Below, piece by piece: positions 2,712 through 26,909 of a stretch of 27,616 bases of DNA. Source of the stretch: a virus; IMG/VR virus record IMGVR_UViG_3300009505_000057, positions 1 through 27,616 of that record; one strand, given 5' to 3'. A model generated the notes under the pieces. The model worked only from the letters and a program-made list of their open reading frames with translations. It did no database searches and was not told the DNA's origin. How positions within the stretch are numbered: the first letter of the stretch is position 1; the number at the start of each line of letters is the position of its first letter. The position numbers and the translations under genes are program-made.

Positions 2712-3059
2712 TTAGCTGCTAGTGACCATTACTCCAGCGTTCTGGATAGCCTTTCTTCCCTTGTCAGTCTTTGGAACATAGTTCTCTGTAAAGTGAATAG
2801 TATCATCTTTAACATAAACCAATTCAAATCCTTGGTTGCTGATGCACCCAGAAAATGGGGAATACTTGTTAAGTAGTTTGATGTCGCACTGATACTCGTA
2901 ATAAACTTCCCCTTGCTCCGTGGCGTATGCTACTTCTACTTCTTGGTCTAGCTCATTAAGGTCACGTAGGGCTAGGCTCTTGTTATAGCTTAGATCCATG
3001 CCAGCGTGTTTTACTGCTTCTGATACTGATGCAAATGCGGTTACTGTTTTAGTTTTCAT
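2712..3059 (-). CDS. Small hypothetical protein (115 aa)
   Basis: The product begins MKTKTVTAFASVSEAVKHAG and is followed by alternating polar and hydrophobic stretches (EVEVAYATEQGEVYYEYQCD, FELVYVKDDTIHFTENYVP), suggesting a beta-rich fold. No family is recognised. It is the first gene after promoter module B. It starts at ATG 3059 with CACTACTAC 4 bases upstream and heads the operon that runs to the terminator at 1416-1463. Confidence 0.8.
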   Translation of the reverse strand: MKTKTVTAFASVSEAVKHAGMDLSYNKSLALRDLNELDQEVEVAYATEQGEVYYEYQCDIKLLNKYSPFSGCISNQGFELVYVKDDTIHFTENYVPKTDKGRKAIQNAGVMVTSS

Positions 3060-3063
3060 GTTT

Positions 3064-3072
3064 GTAGTAGTG
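3064..3072 (-). promoter_or_regulatory. CACTACTAC leader motif before ATG at 3059
   Basis: The leader reads AACCAAAAACACTACTAC on the minus strand, then AAAC and the ATG. Thirteen bases (ACACTACTACAAA) are complementary to the 3' UTR element at 9157-9170. Confidence 0.75.
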
Positions 3073-3158
3073 TTTTTGGTTTTGGTTGCGGTTGCGTTTG
3101 CTCCCGCTGATGATTAGAAACTACTGAATGAATTGATAAATAACAAGCATTGATTCAA
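3073..3158 (-). promoter_or_regulatory. Promoter and leader module B
   Basis: TTGAAT (3153-3158), a 17-base spacer and CAATTC (3130-3135) align exactly with the pairs in modules A and C. TAATCATCAGCGGGAG and CGCAACC repeats follow, then the CACTACTAC leader. The upstream part shares TCAATAAATCTTC (plus strand) with module A but lacks the 20-base block that A shares with C, so the three modules are mosaics. Confidence 0.6.
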
Positions 3159-3220: not shown

Positions 3221-3544
3221 TCAAGAATTGGCTGTTAGATGCTTTTTTAGCTCTGTTACGGCTGTTTTCATCTTTGGATTCTTTTCCATAGCTTGCTTTA
3301 TGCGTTTAATGGCGTGTAATACTGTAGCGTGATTCCTATTGCTAAAAAACATTCCTACTTTAGCTAGACTTAAAGTTGTTAGATCATAGCAAAGATACAT
3401 TGCAACTTGTCTAACAAAAGCATCTGGTTGTTGCCTTCCTTTTCCTGTTAGATTTTTTGGATTAAGCCCCCAAAGTTTTGCGGTTGCATTGGTTATTGTT
3501 TCGGCTGTTAGATTTCCAGATGGGAGAAATTTTTCGTAGTTCAT
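3221..3544 (-). CDS. Free-standing DnaA domain IV-like DNA-binding protein
   Basis: This 107-residue protein matches only the C-terminal DNA-binding domain of the bacterial initiator DnaA. RQQPDAFVRQVAMYLCYDLT (residues 37-56) corresponds to the helix with the conserved Arg-Gln-x-Ala-Met-Tyr-Leu. SLAKVGMFFSNRNHATVLHA (59-78) corresponds to the DnaA signature, usually GRDHTTVLHA, whose His-Thr-Val contacts bases of the DnaA box. There is no AAA+ ATPase part. The start overlaps the stop of the helicase gene (TAATG), so the two are coupled. It may direct the helicase to an origin, compete with host DnaA, or act as a regulator. The domain match is clear, and the role is inference. Confidence 0.9.
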   Translation of the reverse strand: MNYEKFLPSGNLTAETITNATAKLWGLNPKNLTGKGRQQPDAFVRQVAMYLCYDLTTLSLAKVGMFFSNRNHATVLHAIKRIKQAMEKNPKMKTAVTELKKHLTANS

Positions 3545-4791
3545 TATTCAAATCTCTGCATCGCTCCGTTCAATCTCAAATCCAAAGTTTTGTTTCTCTC
3601 TCCGTTTCTGTTCTTAGCTACGAAAATGTTTTCTGAATCATCTCCAATATTTAAAAGAACATCCGCATCATGCCCAATGGCTCTGCTCTCTCTAACTTTT
3701 CCATCATCATTCAACTGGCTTGCTGTTATGACGGGGCATTTATATTTCTTGGCTAGCTGCTTTAGTGTTCTTGTTACCTCTGCAACTTGTTCATGCCTTG
3801 GTTTATCTTTGGAGTTCATCAAGGAAACCAACTGAATGTAATCAACAACGATTAAATCTATTCGCTTTCCAGAGTCTTGAACTTGCTGTGATTTTGTTGC
3901 TATGCTTTCCAAGCTGATAGAATCCGTATCACAAATTGTTAGACAGTCTGAGGCTATTACGTCTTCAATATAATCTCTCAGTTTGATGATGTCGTTTTTG
4001 ATTAAAGGAAGATGGCTTGTAGCCAGTATTTTTCCCATGTCTATTCTGAGGGTGTTTGCAGCAAGCCTAGCGTGTATTCTACTAGCCTCTGTCTCCAAGC
4101 TAAAGAGCAAGACGTTCTTTCCTAGCCCTAGAAAGTGAGCCATAATCTGGAACATCAAAACAGTTTTGCCACCGCTCGTTTGCGCTCCTACTACCCAAAG
4201 CTCATTTTCTGACAACCCGCCCGTGATTTGATCCAGTTCTAAAATCCCGCTTGGCACTCCCGCTTGCGATTTGTCAGAGTGAATAGTTCTTAGCATATCG
4301 CTAAATTCTTCCGCTCCCTGCTTTGCTGATTTCCAGCCAGCCTCATTTTCTAAAATAGAAAGGATGCCTTGTGTTAGATTTTTGGATGCATCCGCTATTT
4401 CTTCGGCTGTTAATCCCTCTCCTAATCCATGCAGTGCTTCATTCAATCCGATATGCGCAAATCTTGTCGCATACATATTTTTTAAGATCTTGAGATGCTG
4501 CTTTAAAATTTCGCCTCCCTGCCATTCACATCTAACAAGTGATATATCATGAGATAGCTCGCTTCCGTTAGATTGCCCTTTGACTTGATCAGAAAACTCT
4601 AGTGATTCTATTTCGTTTATTCTTCCTTCATCCTTGAAGCTGTTAGCCATTCTCCAAATCATCTTTGGTAAATGGTTATGAAAATAATCGGCTGTAATGC
4701 CTTCCGCTTTTAGATGGTTAATATATTTCTCTGGATTGTTTAAAACTGATGAAGCAACGTAAGCTTCGCTGATGCTGTTAGTGAAATTCAT
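3544..4791 (-). CDS. dnaB: Replicative DNA helicase, DnaB family
   Basis: A 415-residue protein with a DnaB_N-like helical domain (about 1-150) and a RecA-like core. The Walker A motif is GAQTSGGKT (202-210), followed by LLFSLETEASRIHARLAA (228-245). The Walker B strand is DLIVVDYIQLV (312-322), ITASQLND (355-362) is the sensor-like strand, and VAKNRNGERN (391-400) provides the late basic residues. The family forms a hexameric ring that unwinds DNA at the replication fork. At 415 residues it is slightly shorter than typical bacterial DnaB (about 450-470). The start at 4791 overlaps the stop of the 51-residue gene (TAATG). With the O-like gene upstream and the DnaA-like gene downstream it forms the replication initiation block. 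Confidence 0.93.
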   Translation of the reverse strand: MNFTNSISEAYVASSVLNNPEKYINHLKAEGITADYFHNHLPKMIWRMANSFKDEGRINEIESLEFSDQVKGQSNGSELSHDISLVRCEWQGGEILKQHLKILKNMYATRFAHIGLNEALHGLGEGLTAEEIADASKNLTQGILSILENEAGWKSAKQGAEEFSDMLRTIHSDKSQAGVPSGILELDQITGGLSENELWVVGAQTSGGKTVLMFQIMAHFLGLGKNVLLFSLETEASRIHARLAANTLRIDMGKILATSHLPLIKNDIIKLRDYIEDVIASDCLTICDTDSISLESIATKSQQVQDSGKRIDLIVVDYIQLVSLMNSKDKPRHEQVAEVTRTLKQLAKKYKCPVITASQLNDDGKVRESRAIGHDADVLLNIGDDSENIFVAKNRNGERNKTLDLRLNGAMQRFE

Positions 4792-4946
4792 TAAATCAAT
4801 TTAAGCCTTTTGTATTCTAAACGCATCAAGTTTAGAGCAACTGTTAGTTTCTCTTTTGCTTGCTCTGGCTTCGTTTCGTGAATTTCTTTAATCTCCTTAA
4901 ATAAGGATTCTATCTTTTGGTGTATTTCGTTCTGTTTATCGTTCAT
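4791..4946 (-). CDS. Small coiled-coil-like protein in replication operon (51 aa)
   Basis: The frame starts at ATG 4944-4946, overlapping the TGA of the O-like gene (ATGA), and ends with TAA at 4791-4793, overlapping the helicase ATG. Both overlaps show tight translational coupling. The product MNDKQNEIHQKIESLFKEIK continues EIHETKPEQAKEKLTVALNL and ends MRLEYKRLKLI. It is almost entirely helical and charged, with heptad-like hydrophobic spacing. Its position between a candidate helicase loader and the helicase suggests an adaptor in helicase loading, by context only. Confidence 0.8.
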   Translation of the reverse strand: MNDKQNEIHQKIESLFKEIKEIHETKPEQAKEKLTVALNLMRLEYKRLKLI

Positions 4947-5677
4947 ATCTTTCTGAGATTTCTTTGTCTTTCTTCATCCTTGGCAGTGGCATAGGATGTC
5001 TTTGTGTTTTGATTTTCTTTTGTTGGAAATAATCCAGCCCAAGAGTTTTTAATTGATTGCTCAATTCTTGCAATGGATTCTTTTTCGGTTAGGTCTTCAA
5101 GCTCCTTAAACTGTCTCTTAATTGTTGTATGAGTTAAAGGTTTTTTTATCTCTTTTCTGTGCTGAATCCAATCAGCCCAAGTTTCTTTGAATGAACTAGA
5201 TTTGTGGGGAAGCTCAACACTCTTATTTAATTCTTTTAATTCATTTAATTCTTTTAATTCATTGTTTGTTTTCACTTTGATTTCACTTTGATTTCGTTTG
5301 CGTTTCACTTGCGTTTCACTTGCGTTTCGAGTTGTTTGATAAGTCTCATATTTACAGACTCTTAGGTGTTTCGATTTAGGTGACACTAATTGATCAACCA
5401 TTTTCTGCTTTTCCAAAAGTCCAAGGAATCTAACAACTTTGCTTTTATTCCATTTCCAGCGATCAGCCCAAGTTCCAATAGAGTTGACAGACTCTCCCCT
5501 TTTGCAAGTTATCACTGTATCACCTATTAAAAAACTCCGCTCTGAATGATTACATTCCATGAGAATATCAAGCCATGCCTCTGCTTTGCTGAATACCCTT
5601 TTCTCTTGCCATAGCCAATGATCTCCAAGGCTTCTATGTATTAGGATGAATCCTTTGTTCTTTCTTTCTTCGTTCAT
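4943..5677 (-). CDS. Phage replication initiator / helicase loader, O-like
   Basis: A 244-residue protein. Residues 9-105 (GFILIHRSLGDHWLWQEKRV through WADRWKWNKSKVVRFLGLLE) form a winged helix typical of phage O / DnaD-type initiators: a WLDILMECNH helix, a GESVNSIGTWADRW recognition region and a KQKMVDQ wing. Residues 106-155 are a low-complexity linker containing ELKELNELKELN. Residues 165-225 (ETWADWIQHRKEIKKPLT, then IARIEQSIKNSWAGLFP) match the C-terminal helical module that contacts helicases in such proteins. The linker is encoded by the tandem DNA repeats at 5226-5335, a probable origin, as in lambda O. It lies directly upstream of the 51-residue gene and the helicase. The start at 5677 has no clear Shine-Dalgarno sequence. 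Confidence 0.82.
   Translation of the reverse strand: MNEERKNKGFILIHRSLGDHWLWQEKRVFSKAEAWLDILMECNHSERSFLIGDTVITCKRGESVNSIGTWADRWKWNKSKVVRFLGLLEKQKMVDQLVSPKSKHLRVCKYETYQTTRNASETQVKRKRNQSEIKVKTNNELKELNELKELNKSVELPHKSSSFKETWADWIQHRKEIKKPLTHTTIKRQFKELEDLTEKESIARIEQSIKNSWAGLFPTKENQNTKTSYATAKDEERQRNLRKI
5226..5335. repeat. Iteron-like tandem repeats within O-like gene, candidate replication origin
   Basis: Four 9-bp units TTTAATTC(T/A) fill 5226-5261. Six 11-bp units then follow at 5270-5335: TTTCACTTTGA twice, TTTCGTTTGCG, TTTCACTTGCG twice and the degenerate TTTCGAGTTGT. Eleven bases is not a multiple of three, so the repeat cannot be explained by repetition in the encoded protein, and it corresponds to about one helical turn. 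An AT-rich block beside iterons inside the initiator gene is the layout of the lambda origin. Confidence 0.65.
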
Positions 5678-5798: not shown

Positions 5799-5807
5799 GT
5801 AGTAGTG
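5799..5807 (-). promoter_or_regulatory. CACTACTAC leader motif before ATG at 5795
   Basis: The motif lies 3 bases before an ATG that opens only an 18-codon frame. Eleven bases (ACACTACTACA) match the antisense element at 9157-9170. The motif is preceded here by CTAACA instead of the usual AACCAAAA. Confidence 0.6.
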
Positions 5808-5826
5808 TTAGTGTTTTTAGATTTAT

Positions 5827-5843
5827 GTAACGTGTGACGTTAC
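5827..5843. repeat. Palindrome GTAACGT-GTG-ACGTTAC
   Basis: A 7-bp perfect inverted repeat 3 bases after the stop of the gene at 5847-6119. Its core TAACGTGTGACGTTA differs at one central base from the palindrome at 6155-6171, at the end of the next gene upstream. No T-tract follows on the minus strand. It is an operator or RNA hairpin candidate. Confidence 0.6.
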
Positions 5844-6122: not shown

Positions 6123-6131
6123 GTGGTAGTG
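6123..6131 (-). promoter_or_regulatory. Variant leader motif CACTACCAC before ATG at 6119
   Basis: It has the same position and flanks (AACCAAAAA before, AAA after) as the CACTACTAC leaders, with one changed base. If leaders pair with the 9157-9170 RNA, the change converts an A-U pair to an A-C mismatch and gives a natural weak-binding variant. Confidence 0.6.
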
Positions 6132-6154
6132 TTTTTGGTTTACGTTAGATTGCT

Positions 6155-6171
6155 ATAACGTGTCACGTTAT
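6155..6171. repeat. Palindrome ATAACGTG-T-CACGTTAT
   Basis: An 8-bp perfect inverted repeat about a single central base that includes the stop codon of the gene at 6168-6593. It is nearly identical to 5827-5843. Both sit at gene ends in the same operon. Confidence 0.65.
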
Positions 6172-6597: not shown

Positions 6598-6606
6598 GTA
6601 GTAGTG
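6598..6606 (-). promoter_or_regulatory. CACTACTAC leader motif before ATG at 6593
   Basis: The leader reads AACCAAAAACACTACTAC followed by AACA and the ATG. Twelve bases (ACACTACTACAA) match the antisense element at 9157-9170. Confidence 0.75.
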
Positions 6607-6633
6607 TTTTTGGTTTCTGTTAGTAATTCAATT

Positions 6634-6928: not shown

Positions 6929-6937
6929 GTAGTAGTG
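6929..6937 (-). promoter_or_regulatory. CACTACTAC leader motif before ATG at 6927
   Basis: The motif lies one base before the ATG, after AACCAA. Ten bases match the antisense element at 9157-9170. Confidence 0.7.
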
Positions 6938-7020
6938 TTGGTTGTTTGTTTGGTTGCGGTCGTTCCCGCTGATGATTAAAACTTAGCCATAAGATTAATA
7001 AAAGGCTAGCACTAAATCAA
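6938..7020 (-). promoter_or_regulatory. Promoter and leader module C
   Basis: TTGATT (7015-7020), a 17-base spacer and TAATCT (6992-6997) form the best sigma70-like pair of the three modules. TAATCATCAGCGGGA follows near the expected transcription start, then CGCAACC and the CACTACTAC leader. Positions 7000-7019 are identical to 1371-1390 of module A. It should drive the operon 6927 to 3221, including the replication genes. Confidence 0.62.
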
Positions 7021-23391: not shown

Positions 23392-24852
23392 TTATGGTGC
23401 ATCGTTTGGTCTGTAAACTGAGCTATCATAACCATCGCTGTTTCCTGCCTTGTCTAGCCTGTCATCATCGTTAGTTAAGTAATGATGCTCTAACCCGCTT
23501 TGAACATCTGTGCCAGCAACTAGATCGTTTATTTCTGATTGTGATAAAGCCTTTGAATAAATTCTAAAATCGCAAATCCTCCCATTTAAATACAAATCTG
23601 GATCATTAACAACTGATCTAGCTCCTACAAAAATATCTGTAGAATTGCTGTAATTAGACATTGTTGCCGAAGACATATCTCCGTCATCAGTTGCGTCTAA
23701 AGTTTCTTGAACCCCATCAAGGTAAACGCTCATTCCTGCTTGCGTAGTGATGCCAACCACATGAACCCAATCAGTCAACCCATTTGCCTGTGCTGTTGTT
23801 GTCTTAGCTCTCCCTTGGTTTCCAGTCTCAATGTAGCCGAGAGTCATTTTTCCATCACTACCTAAGAAAAAAGAAACTCTTGTTACACTAGGACCACTTG
23901 CACTTTGCGCAGCAAAAATCATTTCTGAACTTGCTGGATTCCCGTCAATAAACTTAACCCAAAATGCAAAGGTGTGACTTGATTGGAAGATTGATTCCAT
24001 AGCAGAATCCTGTCTAACTGTAAAAAAATCACTACCATTACACAATAAATACCTGTTTCCAAATACAGGGTTACTTGGTAGAGGTGGAACGCTTGTGGAG
24101 GTTGACAGACTTACTGTGTCTGCCCCGCCTAAGTTGTTAGAGCTTTGATCTTCTACTGAATCAACATCTGTCAGCCAATGCCCGACAAGACCAGATTGAA
24201 CATCGGTTTCTTGATAAAGGTCAGTTATCTCCTGTGAAGACAGAACCCTATCATAAACTCTACAATCTGCCATTTTGCCTTCTGAAAAATATCTCACTCC
24301 AGCGTTTTCGTTCGCTATTCCTATTGCTGGATTAGAGTTTGTATTTTCCATTGCCACATAACTAGCACTCGTAAAGGCTTGAGTAACTGTCATTGGAACT
24401 CCACCTATACTAAAGAAGCACCCTTGGTTAGCTGTAGCCCCGCCTCTTCCATCGTATGTAGCAACAAAGTGAGTCCAAATTCCTATTCTTGAGGAAAGAT
24501 TAAATGCGCTTTTTATTCCTTGGTAACTCGTTGTGCCTTCCGAATTATCTGCTAATATCAAAATCAAAAAACCATTACCATCAGTGGTAAATATGTATTC
24601 AATATTAGAATTGCCAGCATTTACATAATCATACTTTGTAAAAATACGGAATCTGCTCATATCTTCTATCTTAACCCAGCAAGATATTGAAAAAGGCGAG
24701 TCGTTTGTTCCATCACCAAACGTCAATAAATTAGTGTCTGGAATAATGATTGCCTCTTTATGTAGCTGATTAAAACTCCTAGAGGAATTGCCAAAGGGAA
24801 CGCCCCCAGCCCCTTGAAATCCTTTTCTTTTATGTGATAAATATGAACTCAT
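23392..24852 (-). CDS. Virion-associated protein with two LamG-type lectin domains
   Basis: A 486-residue protein. It has two concanavalin-like LamG_3 modules of about 200 residues. The first starts near SSRSFNQLHKEAIIIPDTNL and contains SISCWVKIEDMSRF, IGIWTHFVATYDGRGGATAN and KMADCRVYDRVLSSQEITDL. The second starts near GNRYLLCNGSDFFTVRQDSA, with TFAFWVKFIDGN, WVHVVGITTQAGMSVYLDGV and ICDFRIYSKALSQSEINDL. Each ends in a W/Y-L-T-x-D-D linker. The W-x-H-V..Y-x-D-G..I-x-D-x-R-I-Y pattern is the LamG signature. The fold binds glycans or proteins, so it may act as an adhesin or capsid decoration. It lies directly downstream of the three-LamG gene and before the neck gene. Confidence 0.85.
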   Translation of the reverse strand: MSSYLSHKRKGFQGAGGVPFGNSSRSFNQLHKEAIIIPDTNLLTFGDGTNDSPFSISCWVKIEDMSRFRIFTKYDYVNAGNSNIEYIFTTDGNGFLILILADNSEGTTSYQGIKSAFNLSSRIGIWTHFVATYDGRGGATANQGCFFSIGGVPMTVTQAFTSASYVAMENTNSNPAIGIANENAGVRYFSEGKMADCRVYDRVLSSQEITDLYQETDVQSGLVGHWLTDVDSVEDQSSNNLGGADTVSLSTSTSVPPLPSNPVFGNRYLLCNGSDFFTVRQDSAMESIFQSSHTFAFWVKFIDGNPASSEMIFAAQSASGPSVTRVSFFLGSDGKMTLGYIETGNQGRAKTTTAQANGLTDWVHVVGITTQAGMSVYLDGVQETLDATDDGDMSSATMSNYSNSTDIFVGARSVVNDPDLYLNGRICDFRIYSKALSQSEINDLVAGTDVQSGLEHHYLTNDDDRLDKAGNSDGYDSSVYRPNDAP

Positions 24853-24857
24853 TATTT

Positions 24858-26909
24858 TTAAGATGGGCTATCAGTTGAGTAAGTAGAACCATTGTTAGTT
24901 CCATCATTTGTTCCCGCATGATCTAAAACGTCATCGCTGTTAGTTAGCCATTGACCAATTAGGTTAGTTCTATCTGTTGTGCCATTGTAGATGTCTAGGA
25001 TTTGAGAAGCTGTTAGGTCAGTATCGTAGATGCGAACATCTGCATATTTCCCGTCTGCATAGGTTGTAGCGTATCTTCCAATGTAAACATTATTAGCTGT
25101 GTTTACATCCATAGCTCCGTAGCCTGCAGATCCAAAATCCGCATTGTCAACTTGAACGCCATTTACATATAACTTTAAACCCAACCTAAAGTTTTCTCCC
25201 CCGCTTCCGTCATAGGTAGCTGATACGTGTAGCCATTCATTCTCTGGTAGTGGGGTTGTGTATTCTCTACCTCTAAATACTCCACCATCTATTAAATAGA
25301 TATTTAAGTTGCCCCCAGCATCAGTAGCTAAAAGCCATTCTCTATCAGAGCCTATACCATTATCCTTACCCAATACTCTAAATGTTGAATTATCATCAAT
25401 TTTCAACCATGTGCTGAGAGAAAAAGGTTCGTCATTGTTTCCATCTGAAAAACTAAACTCAGTGGAGTTACCTAAATTGACATGATCACTAACACCATCA
25501 AAGTCACGGCTTGCTTGCCTAGATGGAACTAGATCCATAGGAGGGTTATCATAGGAGTAAGTAGAACCAAAGTTAGTGCCGTCATTAGTTCCAGCCTTGT
25601 CTTCTACGTCATCGTTATCTGTTAGCCAATGTCCTGCAAGATTTGTTTGAACATCTGTGCCAGAGTAAATGTCAGAAACTTGGGAAGCTGTTAGGTCAGT
25701 ATCGTAATATCTAACATCTGCAATCTTGCCGTCTTGAAAAAAGTTTGCGTTGGTTAACGCATTATAAGCTCCAATAACTACGCTTGCGGTTGATGTCGTT
25801 ATTGTCCCGTCAAATGCAGTGGTGTTTTCTAAGTTCCCGTTTATATAGATTTTTATTTCGCTTCCGTCAACTGTAGCTGCAAGATGAAACCATTCACCAA
25901 CTGAAGCATCGGTTGTAGAGGTGCAAATAATATTTGTATTGTTGGTTTGCCTTATAAGAAATCTAACATCTGTTTCCCCTGTAAACAAAACCCAACTTAT
26001 GCCCCCACCCCCACTGCCAGAGTCAAATTTTGAGATTACACCCTTTCCAAAACTAGCATCTGTTGTTTCTTTTTTAATCCAAGATGAAACACTAAACACT
26101 GTGTCTCCGCTAAATATATTTCCAAGATCAACATAATCATTAACACCATCAAAGCTACGGCTTGCACTGCCAAACTCTACAGGTGGTGAGGGGTTATCAT
26201 ATGAATACTTTGATCCGTAGTTAGTGCCGTGATTTGTTCCCGCAGCATCTAGCAAGTTGTCTGCATCTGTTAGCCAATGCCCTACAAGATTTGTTTGAAC
26301 ATCTGTGCCAGCGTATAGGTCAGAAACTTGGGAAGCTGTTAGGTCAGTATCATAGATTCTAACATCTGCCATTTTCCCATTAATGTGATTTAATGGAGTT
26401 GTTGGGTTAGTCAAAAAACCTAACCCTAATTCGTTTGCAGCGTTTCCAGTGGCGGTATGTTGGTAGTTGTAACTCCCTATAAATGTCCCGTCTCTATAAG
26501 CTGAAATAGTAGATCCATCTGAACTCAACGCCCAATGATGCCAGCCAGAATCGGGAACGCAATTATCAATTTTTAAGTCATCTAATTGTGCTTGATTGGC
26601 ATTGTATATAATAAATCGTATTCCGTTAGGCTGAGTCCCCGTCCTGTTGTCAAGCTGAAGTAAAAACCCCCTGCTGTTTCCAGCGTAATTGTTAGCGACC
26701 AATGCCCCAGGATTATTAGTGTTATACTCGTCCCATTTAGCCCATAACGTGATAGTAAAAACCTTGCTTATATGAATAAAGTTAAAGCTGCTTGTTGTGC
26801 CTATAGAATCAACATTATCATCAACACCATCAAAGCTACGGCTTCGATTTCCAAAGCCGTCAAATGTTAGAGCCTCGCCCCCGTGAATATATGGATTGAT
26901 TATATCCAT
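24858..26909 (-). CDS. Virion-associated protein with three LamG-type lectin domains
   Basis: A 683-residue protein built of three LamG_3 modules. Each opens with a R-S/D-F-D-G-V-x-D-x-V segment (near residues 23, 252 and 466). Each then has W-x-H-W/L/V, a Y-x-D/N-G strand and A-D-V-R-I/Y-Y-D-T-D-L-T-A-S-Q, and closes with W-L-T-D/N-x-D-D and D-A-A-G-T-N-x-G-T-N-x-G-S. The modules repeat about every 216-226 codons, and their ends remain nearly identical at DNA level (see the repeats at 25007-26354), showing recent duplication or gene conversion. The start overlaps the stop of the upstream gene (TAATG). The position between probable head genes and the neck gene suggests a capsid or collar attachment rather than the tail tip. 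Confidence 0.87.
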   Translation of the reverse strand: MDIINPYIHGGEALTFDGFGNRSRSFDGVDDNVDSIGTTSSFNFIHISKVFTITLWAKWDEYNTNNPGALVANNYAGNSRGFLLQLDNRTGTQPNGIRFIIYNANQAQLDDLKIDNCVPDSGWHHWALSSDGSTISAYRDGTFIGSYNYQHTATGNAANELGLGFLTNPTTPLNHINGKMADVRIYDTDLTASQVSDLYAGTDVQTNLVGHWLTDADNLLDAAGTNHGTNYGSKYSYDNPSPPVEFGSASRSFDGVNDYVDLGNIFSGDTVFSVSSWIKKETTDASFGKGVISKFDSGSGGGGISWVLFTGETDVRFLIRQTNNTNIICTSTTDASVGEWFHLAATVDGSEIKIYINGNLENTTAFDGTITTSTASVVIGAYNALTNANFFQDGKIADVRYYDTDLTASQVSDIYSGTDVQTNLAGHWLTDNDDVEDKAGTNDGTNFGSTYSYDNPPMDLVPSRQASRDFDGVSDHVNLGNSTEFSFSDGNNDEPFSLSTWLKIDDNSTFRVLGKDNGIGSDREWLLATDAGGNLNIYLIDGGVFRGREYTTPLPENEWLHVSATYDGSGGENFRLGLKLYVNGVQVDNADFGSAGYGAMDVNTANNVYIGRYATTYADGKYADVRIYDTDLTASQILDIYNGTTDRTNLIGQWLTNSDDVLDHAGTNDGTNNGSTYSTDSPS
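25007..26354. repeat. Near-identical LamG module junctions (three copies)
   Basis: AAGCTGTTAGGTCAGTATC occurs at 25007, 25685 and 26333. The second and third copies share a 30-base block ending there, and a 27-base block nearby beginning CAAGATTTGTTTGAACATC. The spacings of 678 and 648 bases are multiples of three, so exchange between copies would keep the frame. Confidence 0.8.

Follow-up and report, generated by a model that had tools for sequence, protein, structure and literature searches.

A probable replication origin of 11-bp iterons, a junction box and AT-rich DNA within the initiator gene of a phage and its relatives

The window analyzed in this study is a virus record of IMG/VR that comprises 27,616 bases. 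Its positions 5226–5335 very probably serve as a theta-type replication origin that is nested in the linker-coding part of an initiator gene. This reading agrees with the original prediction of an in-gene origin and is supported by a survey of homologous genes, most of which carry a similar array with AT-rich DNA on a fixed side of it. The features of the putative origin and of its surroundings are listed in Table 1.

Table 1. Features identified in the window, with positions, strand and supporting evidence
Feature	Position	Strand	Evidence or remark
Initiator gene (O-like/DnaD-like helicase loader), 244 aa	4943–5677	-	Profile matches; putative origin mid-gene
N-terminal winged helix-turn-helix (wHTH), residues 9–110, presumed iteron binder	5348–5653	-	AlphaFold2 models
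11-bp iteron array	5270–5335	-	Repeat reading, period scores, synonymous shuffles
Junction box ACAAACAA	5262–5269	-	8 bp separating iterons from AT-rich array
AT-rich array of four 9-bp units (presumed DNA unwinding element)	5226–5261	-	Repeat reading, stability scan
C-terminal helical part, residues 161–210, presumed helicase/partner contact	5048–5197	-	Model, low to moderate confidence
Phage DnaB-type replicative helicase, presumed client of the origin complex	3544–4791	-	PF03796, E = 8e-43; phrog_19
DnaA domain IV-only protein (107 aa); improbable as iteron binder	3221–3544	-	PF08299
Copies of AACACTACTAC, one with a mismatch	862–872, 1297–1307, 2670–2680, 3064–3074, 5799–5809, 6123–6133, 6598–6608, 6929–6939	-	

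On the plus strand, positions 5270–5335 are made up of six 11-bp units, which are TTTCACTTTGA twice, TTTCGTTTGCG, TTTCACTTGCG twice and TTTCGAGTTGT. The sixth unit is degenerate and similar to the others in its first bases only, so that the array holds about five good units. Read on the minus strand, the iterons are of the GTGAAACGCAA type (three units) and of a GAAATCA/GAAAACA type. Positions 5226–5261 consist of four 9-bp AT-rich units, in which TTTAATTCT and TTTAATTCA alternate. The earlier observation of six tandem 11-bp units with two exact pairs and of four 9-bp AT-rich units, both in the linker of the initiator gene, is confirmed, as both arrays are inside the ORF at 4943–5677 of the minus strand. 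The 11-bp array breaks the codon register, as had also been pointed out, and the 9-bp array keeps it (NELKELNELKEL). When periods of 6–60 were scanned, the top period score of the entire 27.6 kb was 29, at a period of 11, with 5265–5328 as the best segment. The AT array ranked second and third (18-bp score 21, 9-bp score 20), and when the whole window was Markov-shuffled 20 times, the highest score obtained was 14. In addition, the period-11 score of the initiator gene was reached by none of 100 synonymous shuffles. Neither the repeat search nor the box search identified a second copy of the array elsewhere in the window.

The iteron array begins immediately past the wHTH-coding part of the gene. 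In the AlphaFold2 models the pLDDT of the wHTH domain was about 90 over much of its length, and that of the disordered linker residues 140–158 was under 50. The 244-aa protein matched phrog_2514 (E = 2.2e-20) and phrog_186 (E = 1.8e-13), both of which are DnaD-like helicase loaders, and phrog_2514 was also matched by all 55 aligned family members. Moreover, phrog_678, which contains O-like initiators, aligned with residues 105–229 in its C-terminal half. The window protein had no match to PF09681 (Phage_rep_org_N), to which the relative L090 scored 24.1 with a cut-off of 23.3. For the window initiator, no Pfam or NCBIfam match was found, a sequence search against solved structures returned nothing significant, and Foldseek searches, run on the complete model as well as on the isolated wHTH, returned generic winged helices only, none at E ≤ 0.001. 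Judged by its profile matches, the window initiator is a DnaD-like protein, probably of a common group with Phage_rep_org_N, and not a member of the lambda O family. The genes for the DnaB-type helicase and the DnaA domain IV-only protein are downstream of the initiator gene and in the same direction.

Several other features of the window were also observed. The motif AACACTACTAC is found a few bases 5' of the start codons of many early genes. When up to 2 mismatches were allowed, 21 matches were counted where 6.1 were expected, and the motif may act as a leader or a translation signal common to these genes. The near-palindromes TAACGTGTGACGTTA and TAACGTGTCACGTTA are located at 5828–5842 and 6156–6170, in short gaps between early genes; with both strands counted, 4 matches were found and 0.6 expected, and these sites are possible operators of a phage regulator. 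Finally, 23392–26909 of the minus strand, which adjoins structural genes, encodes two large proteins of repeated SRSFDGVDD..ADVRIYDTDLTASQ segments. These segments are LamG-like by eye, and the proteins are probably tail or receptor-binding proteins.

The conserved wHTH domain was used to retrieve relatives of the initiator among viral contigs and species genomes, and 63 relatives whose N-domains were <75% identical formed a divergent set. Synonymous-codon shuffles, which preserve the protein, were used as the null for the period scores. Beyond these shuffles, a period of 11 was found in 41 of the 63 relatives, a period of 22 in 32 and a period of 33 in 17, with about 1.3 expected for each. 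The background periods 10 and 13 were significant in 2 and 0 relatives, respectively. Among 295 other ORFs at the same loci, which served as controls, period 11 was significant in 2 (4.8 expected) and the largest score was 10. Part of the family uses a period of 12 or 11/12 mixtures (23, 34, 35). With these periods included, 57 of the 63 divergent relatives carried an array and six had no significant array by the same criteria. A search of homologous genes had been proposed as a check of the original prediction, with conserved genes that lack the repeats as the outcome that would speak against it; this outcome did not materialize. Arrays were also present in the known phages EH-TP1, Pascal, Ray17, PVL, and KLEP17-4.

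The sequences of the units varied by phage and included GAAACGCAAGT, AGACCACAAGC, GCGACACAAAA and AACATCAAAAG, among others. A weak core was common to them (information of 5.23 versus 4.23 for a column-shuffled null, sd 0.11) and held one nearly fixed C (91%). The columns of the iteron motif were spread about equally over the three codon positions, a pattern that a period of 11 bp requires and that a protein constraint would not permit. Position-by-position conservation within the arrays was uneven, at a level that is suggestive at most (p = 0.07). In L050 and L051, whose N-domains are near-identical, the arrays differed by 66 bp, or six units, with the frame kept, which is the one case found of growth in frame-keeping steps. 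Between the window and L002, 22 of the 735 positions of the gene differed, none of which was in nucleotides 343–452 (p about 0.03). As had been claimed for the window, these comparisons with shuffled and control genes show that selection acts on the 11-bp array as DNA and that its layout is conserved across the family.

Between the iteron array and the AT-rich tract is a box, ACAAACAA(K)AATG, that the original prediction had missed. The family motif on the coding strand is ACAAACAANAAT, of which the window retains 9 of 11 positions. The full 11/11 box was found in 32 of 68 genes, with 3 expected from synonymous shuffles, and had no occurrence in 825 kb of flanking strands. Where genes read Thr-Asn-[NKDE], the Thr codon of the box was ACA in 35 of 38 versus 40% gene-wide, and the first Asn codon was AAC in 36 of 38 versus 37% gene-wide. 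Moreover, the box of L057, L089, L007, L009, and L196 was in another reading frame. In a DNA-only scan, the 19-mer ACACAAACAAKAATGWWAA was compared with 2.9 million viral contigs. Among the 80 matches listed, 71 loci were in the wHTH gene family, as were 45 of 54 when the listed matches were counted by distinct protein. The listed family matches were mostly near codon 125–145, usually with an 11-bp array upstream, and two other loci among the matches listed, L149 and L153, were fragments of the same kind of gene. Because the protein family conserves T-N-K/N-N at the box, the enrichment of the 19-mer is partly at the protein level, and it is the choice of codons and the boxes in other frames that argue for a constraint at the DNA level. 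Judged by these two, the junction box is constrained as DNA, independent of the reading frame. At L165 (box at 2997–3015), the wHTH frame stops soon past the box and the usual TNNNDNN linker goes on in another frame, which could reflect a split gene, a frameshift or a faulty assembly.

The box and the array were also found outside a gene. G001, a prophage record of 35.3 kb, contains an array and a box in the gene of its wHTH initiator (G001:C1:9341-9423) and, 7.5 kb away, an array, a box and an AT tract in DNA that has no open frame (L168; G001:C1:16786-16962). Both copies have RACAGCA units at ~11-bp steps, an identical box and an AT tract. The non-coding copy is just 5' of small genes, which are followed by a gene whose product, judged from its translation, looks like a terminase large subunit. 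An Rfam search returned no match. A systematic search for further non-coding copies yielded L168 alone; the other candidates were near contig ends. Although a single case, this duplicate is consistent with the prediction of an initiator-specific DNA element.

The AT array coincided with the least stable DNA of the window, of which the least stable 50 bp were 5223–5272 and the least stable 80 bp were 5216–5295. Across the family, A+T content averaged 0.54 within the array and 0.64 in its 5' flank, compared with 0.74 over the 60 bp that follow it on the 3' side. A+T was higher 3' than 5' of the array in 41 of 48 genes, and in 36 of 48 the 45-bp stretch of the gene with the highest A+T content began −10 to +80 from the end of the array. 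The 9-bp periodicity exceeded synonymous shuffles in 10 of 63 relatives versus 37 of 63 for codon permutation. Thus, the 9-bp period is mostly an amino-acid pattern, and low stability is likelier than the period to be the target of selection. The comparisons show an order of iterons, box and AT-rich tract that is fixed across the family. Similar to known in-gene iteron origins, the initiator gene contains direct repeats that are selected as DNA, adjoined on a fixed side by an AT-rich region. GC skew was also checked and was uninformative: cumulative skew declines steadily across the array, and it is no help because nearly all genes are on one strand.

We propose that the wHTH domain of the 244-aa protein would bind along the 11-bp iterons in head-to-tail order, with one unit per helical turn, so that the bound copies would be aligned on one face of the DNA. 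Assembly of the protein would stop at the junction box and strain the adjacent 9-bp AT-rich array, which would melt at what is the least stable DNA of the window. The C-terminal part would then recruit the DnaB helicase encoded by the phage to the strand thus opened, as the domain layout and the neighboring genes suggest.

The original prediction had named either the 244-residue protein or the DnaA domain IV-like protein as the binder, of which the former is favored and the latter is unlikely. The phage possesses a free-standing DnaA domain IV (PF08299), encoded in the same gene cluster, as might be expected of a DnaA-type origin whose array is bound by this protein or by the host DnaA. Its relatives in IMG/VR, however, were limited to a 98%-identical contig, whereas arrays occur across the family in phages without such a protein. 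Moreover, the iteron units are unlike DnaA boxes, and the window has only two exact matches to TTWTNCACA (at 12.9 and 13.9 kb; 3.8 expected by chance), both 7–9 kb away, so that no DnaA box was found near the array or the unwinding region, where a DnaA-type origin has them. A DnaA-type origin is therefore very unlikely. DnaA-trios were also considered as a reading of the AT array and set aside. Given the restriction of the DnaA domain IV homolog to its 98%-identical relative and the lack of nearby DnaA boxes, the wHTH protein is likely the iteron binder, far more so than the DnaA domain IV protein.

Other explanations do not involve a replication start at all. Control sites are a common second role of iterons, and the array could be a regulatory site, such as an operator, a site of autoregulation or copy-control iterons, with a 9-bp tract that is AT-rich for unrelated reasons. 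Against such a role, which we consider improbable, stand the location within the initiator gene, the fixed order with the box and the AT-rich tract, the AT tract of the stand-alone copy in G001 and the precedent of SPP1, which has two similar origins (PMC6316719). The repeats could also do no more than reflect the coding of a charged linker of low complexity, as the model shows this linker as disordered and the 9-bp array keeps codon register. However, period 11 outlasted synonymous shuffling in the relatives and not in the controls, the iteron columns are even over the codon positions, and the box is kept in other frames and in the non-coding DNA of G001. This reading is highly improbable, and we take it as refuted by these comparisons where the 11-bp array and the box are concerned. 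Neutral slippage of repeats, in a linker free of constraint, would fit the growth of arrays by 66 bp between L050 and L051, but it would be expected to produce frame-keeping periods (9, 12) and not 11, as single 11-bp steps break the frame. Nor would it be expected to produce a common core and a fixed place in divergent genes, and it is disfavored as an extremely improbable origin of the array.

A nested replication origin is of a kind that is already known. Lambda and Stx phages are established examples of iteron origins that lie within a gene next to an AT-rich tract (PMC7466680). SPP1 possesses two origins of similar make-up, of which oriL, with direct repeats and an unwinding element, is inside the initiator gene 38 and oriR is elsewhere (PMC6316719). 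In pSK41-type RepA_N plasmids, the Rep boxes are located centrally in rep and the linker is encoded by ori, while the N-domain of the initiator is a wHTH related to DnaD (PMC5703833). For P1, oriL is postulated to be located within repL (PMC9948254). By analogy, the window origin would work like those of lambda, SPP1 and RepA_N plasmids: iterons are mid-gene beside an AT-rich tract as in gene O of lambda/Stx phages, G001 has a second origin-like copy away from the initiator gene as published for SPP1, and a wHTH N-domain is combined with centrally placed repeats as in pSK41.

The layout of the lambda-type origin originally proposed thus stood, but its iteron spacing and protein group did not. 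As a positive control, the same method recovered the mapped iterons of lambda at 20- and 23-bp spacing. The 18-bp iterons of the lambda O family are about two turns apart, whereas the window array has 11-bp units at one turn, so that the one-turn unit is a difference of the window family. In addition, no ACAAACAA box was found in the sequence past iteron 4 of lambda, and the window phage, different from lambda/Stx phages, encodes its own DnaB. The window initiator did not show a RepA_N domain either, as it had no Pfam match and 4pt7 ranked 25 with a non-significant E of 0.04. Its direct protein relatives are the DnaD-like loaders and probably the Phage_rep_org_N phage proteins, with which it has arrays in common. 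Among lactococcal phages, Rep of Tuc2009 is annotated as origin-containing and ORF49 of BK5-T has an annotated in-gene repeat region; the repeats of BK5-T are 22–23 bp apart, however, compared to 11 bp in the window. No array of the window kind was found in TP901-1, and none of BK5-T, Tuc2009, and TP901-1 had the box at the right place. The origin of Lactobacillus phage A2 was considered as a relative and rejected, as it belongs to a different replication module and is without the box. The open-access papers searched yielded neither the 11-bp period nor the junction box as a family feature. With caution, the family-wide 11-bp rule and the junction box are regarded as the new elements.

We tentatively suggest, with rather less than even confidence, that the in-gene origins of this family share a previously unnoticed, DNA-constrained and frame-independent box, that their iterons drift as a phage-specific address, and that array, box and AT-rich tract form a portable cassette that could work outside the gene. 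Given that the box stays fixed while the iterons drift, it may mark the start of melting or the entry of the helicase and may be read by a factor common to these phages, perhaps an invariant part of the initiator. Origins are unmapped for most phages known only from metagenomes, and the one-turn iteron period together with the fixed box would provide a sequence rule for finding origins computationally in a common initiator family. The rule separates a drifting specificity code, the iterons, from an invariant part, the box, the function of which is open to synonymous recoding. Finally, the coding and non-coding copies of G001 would permit the origin to be mutated without altering the protein.
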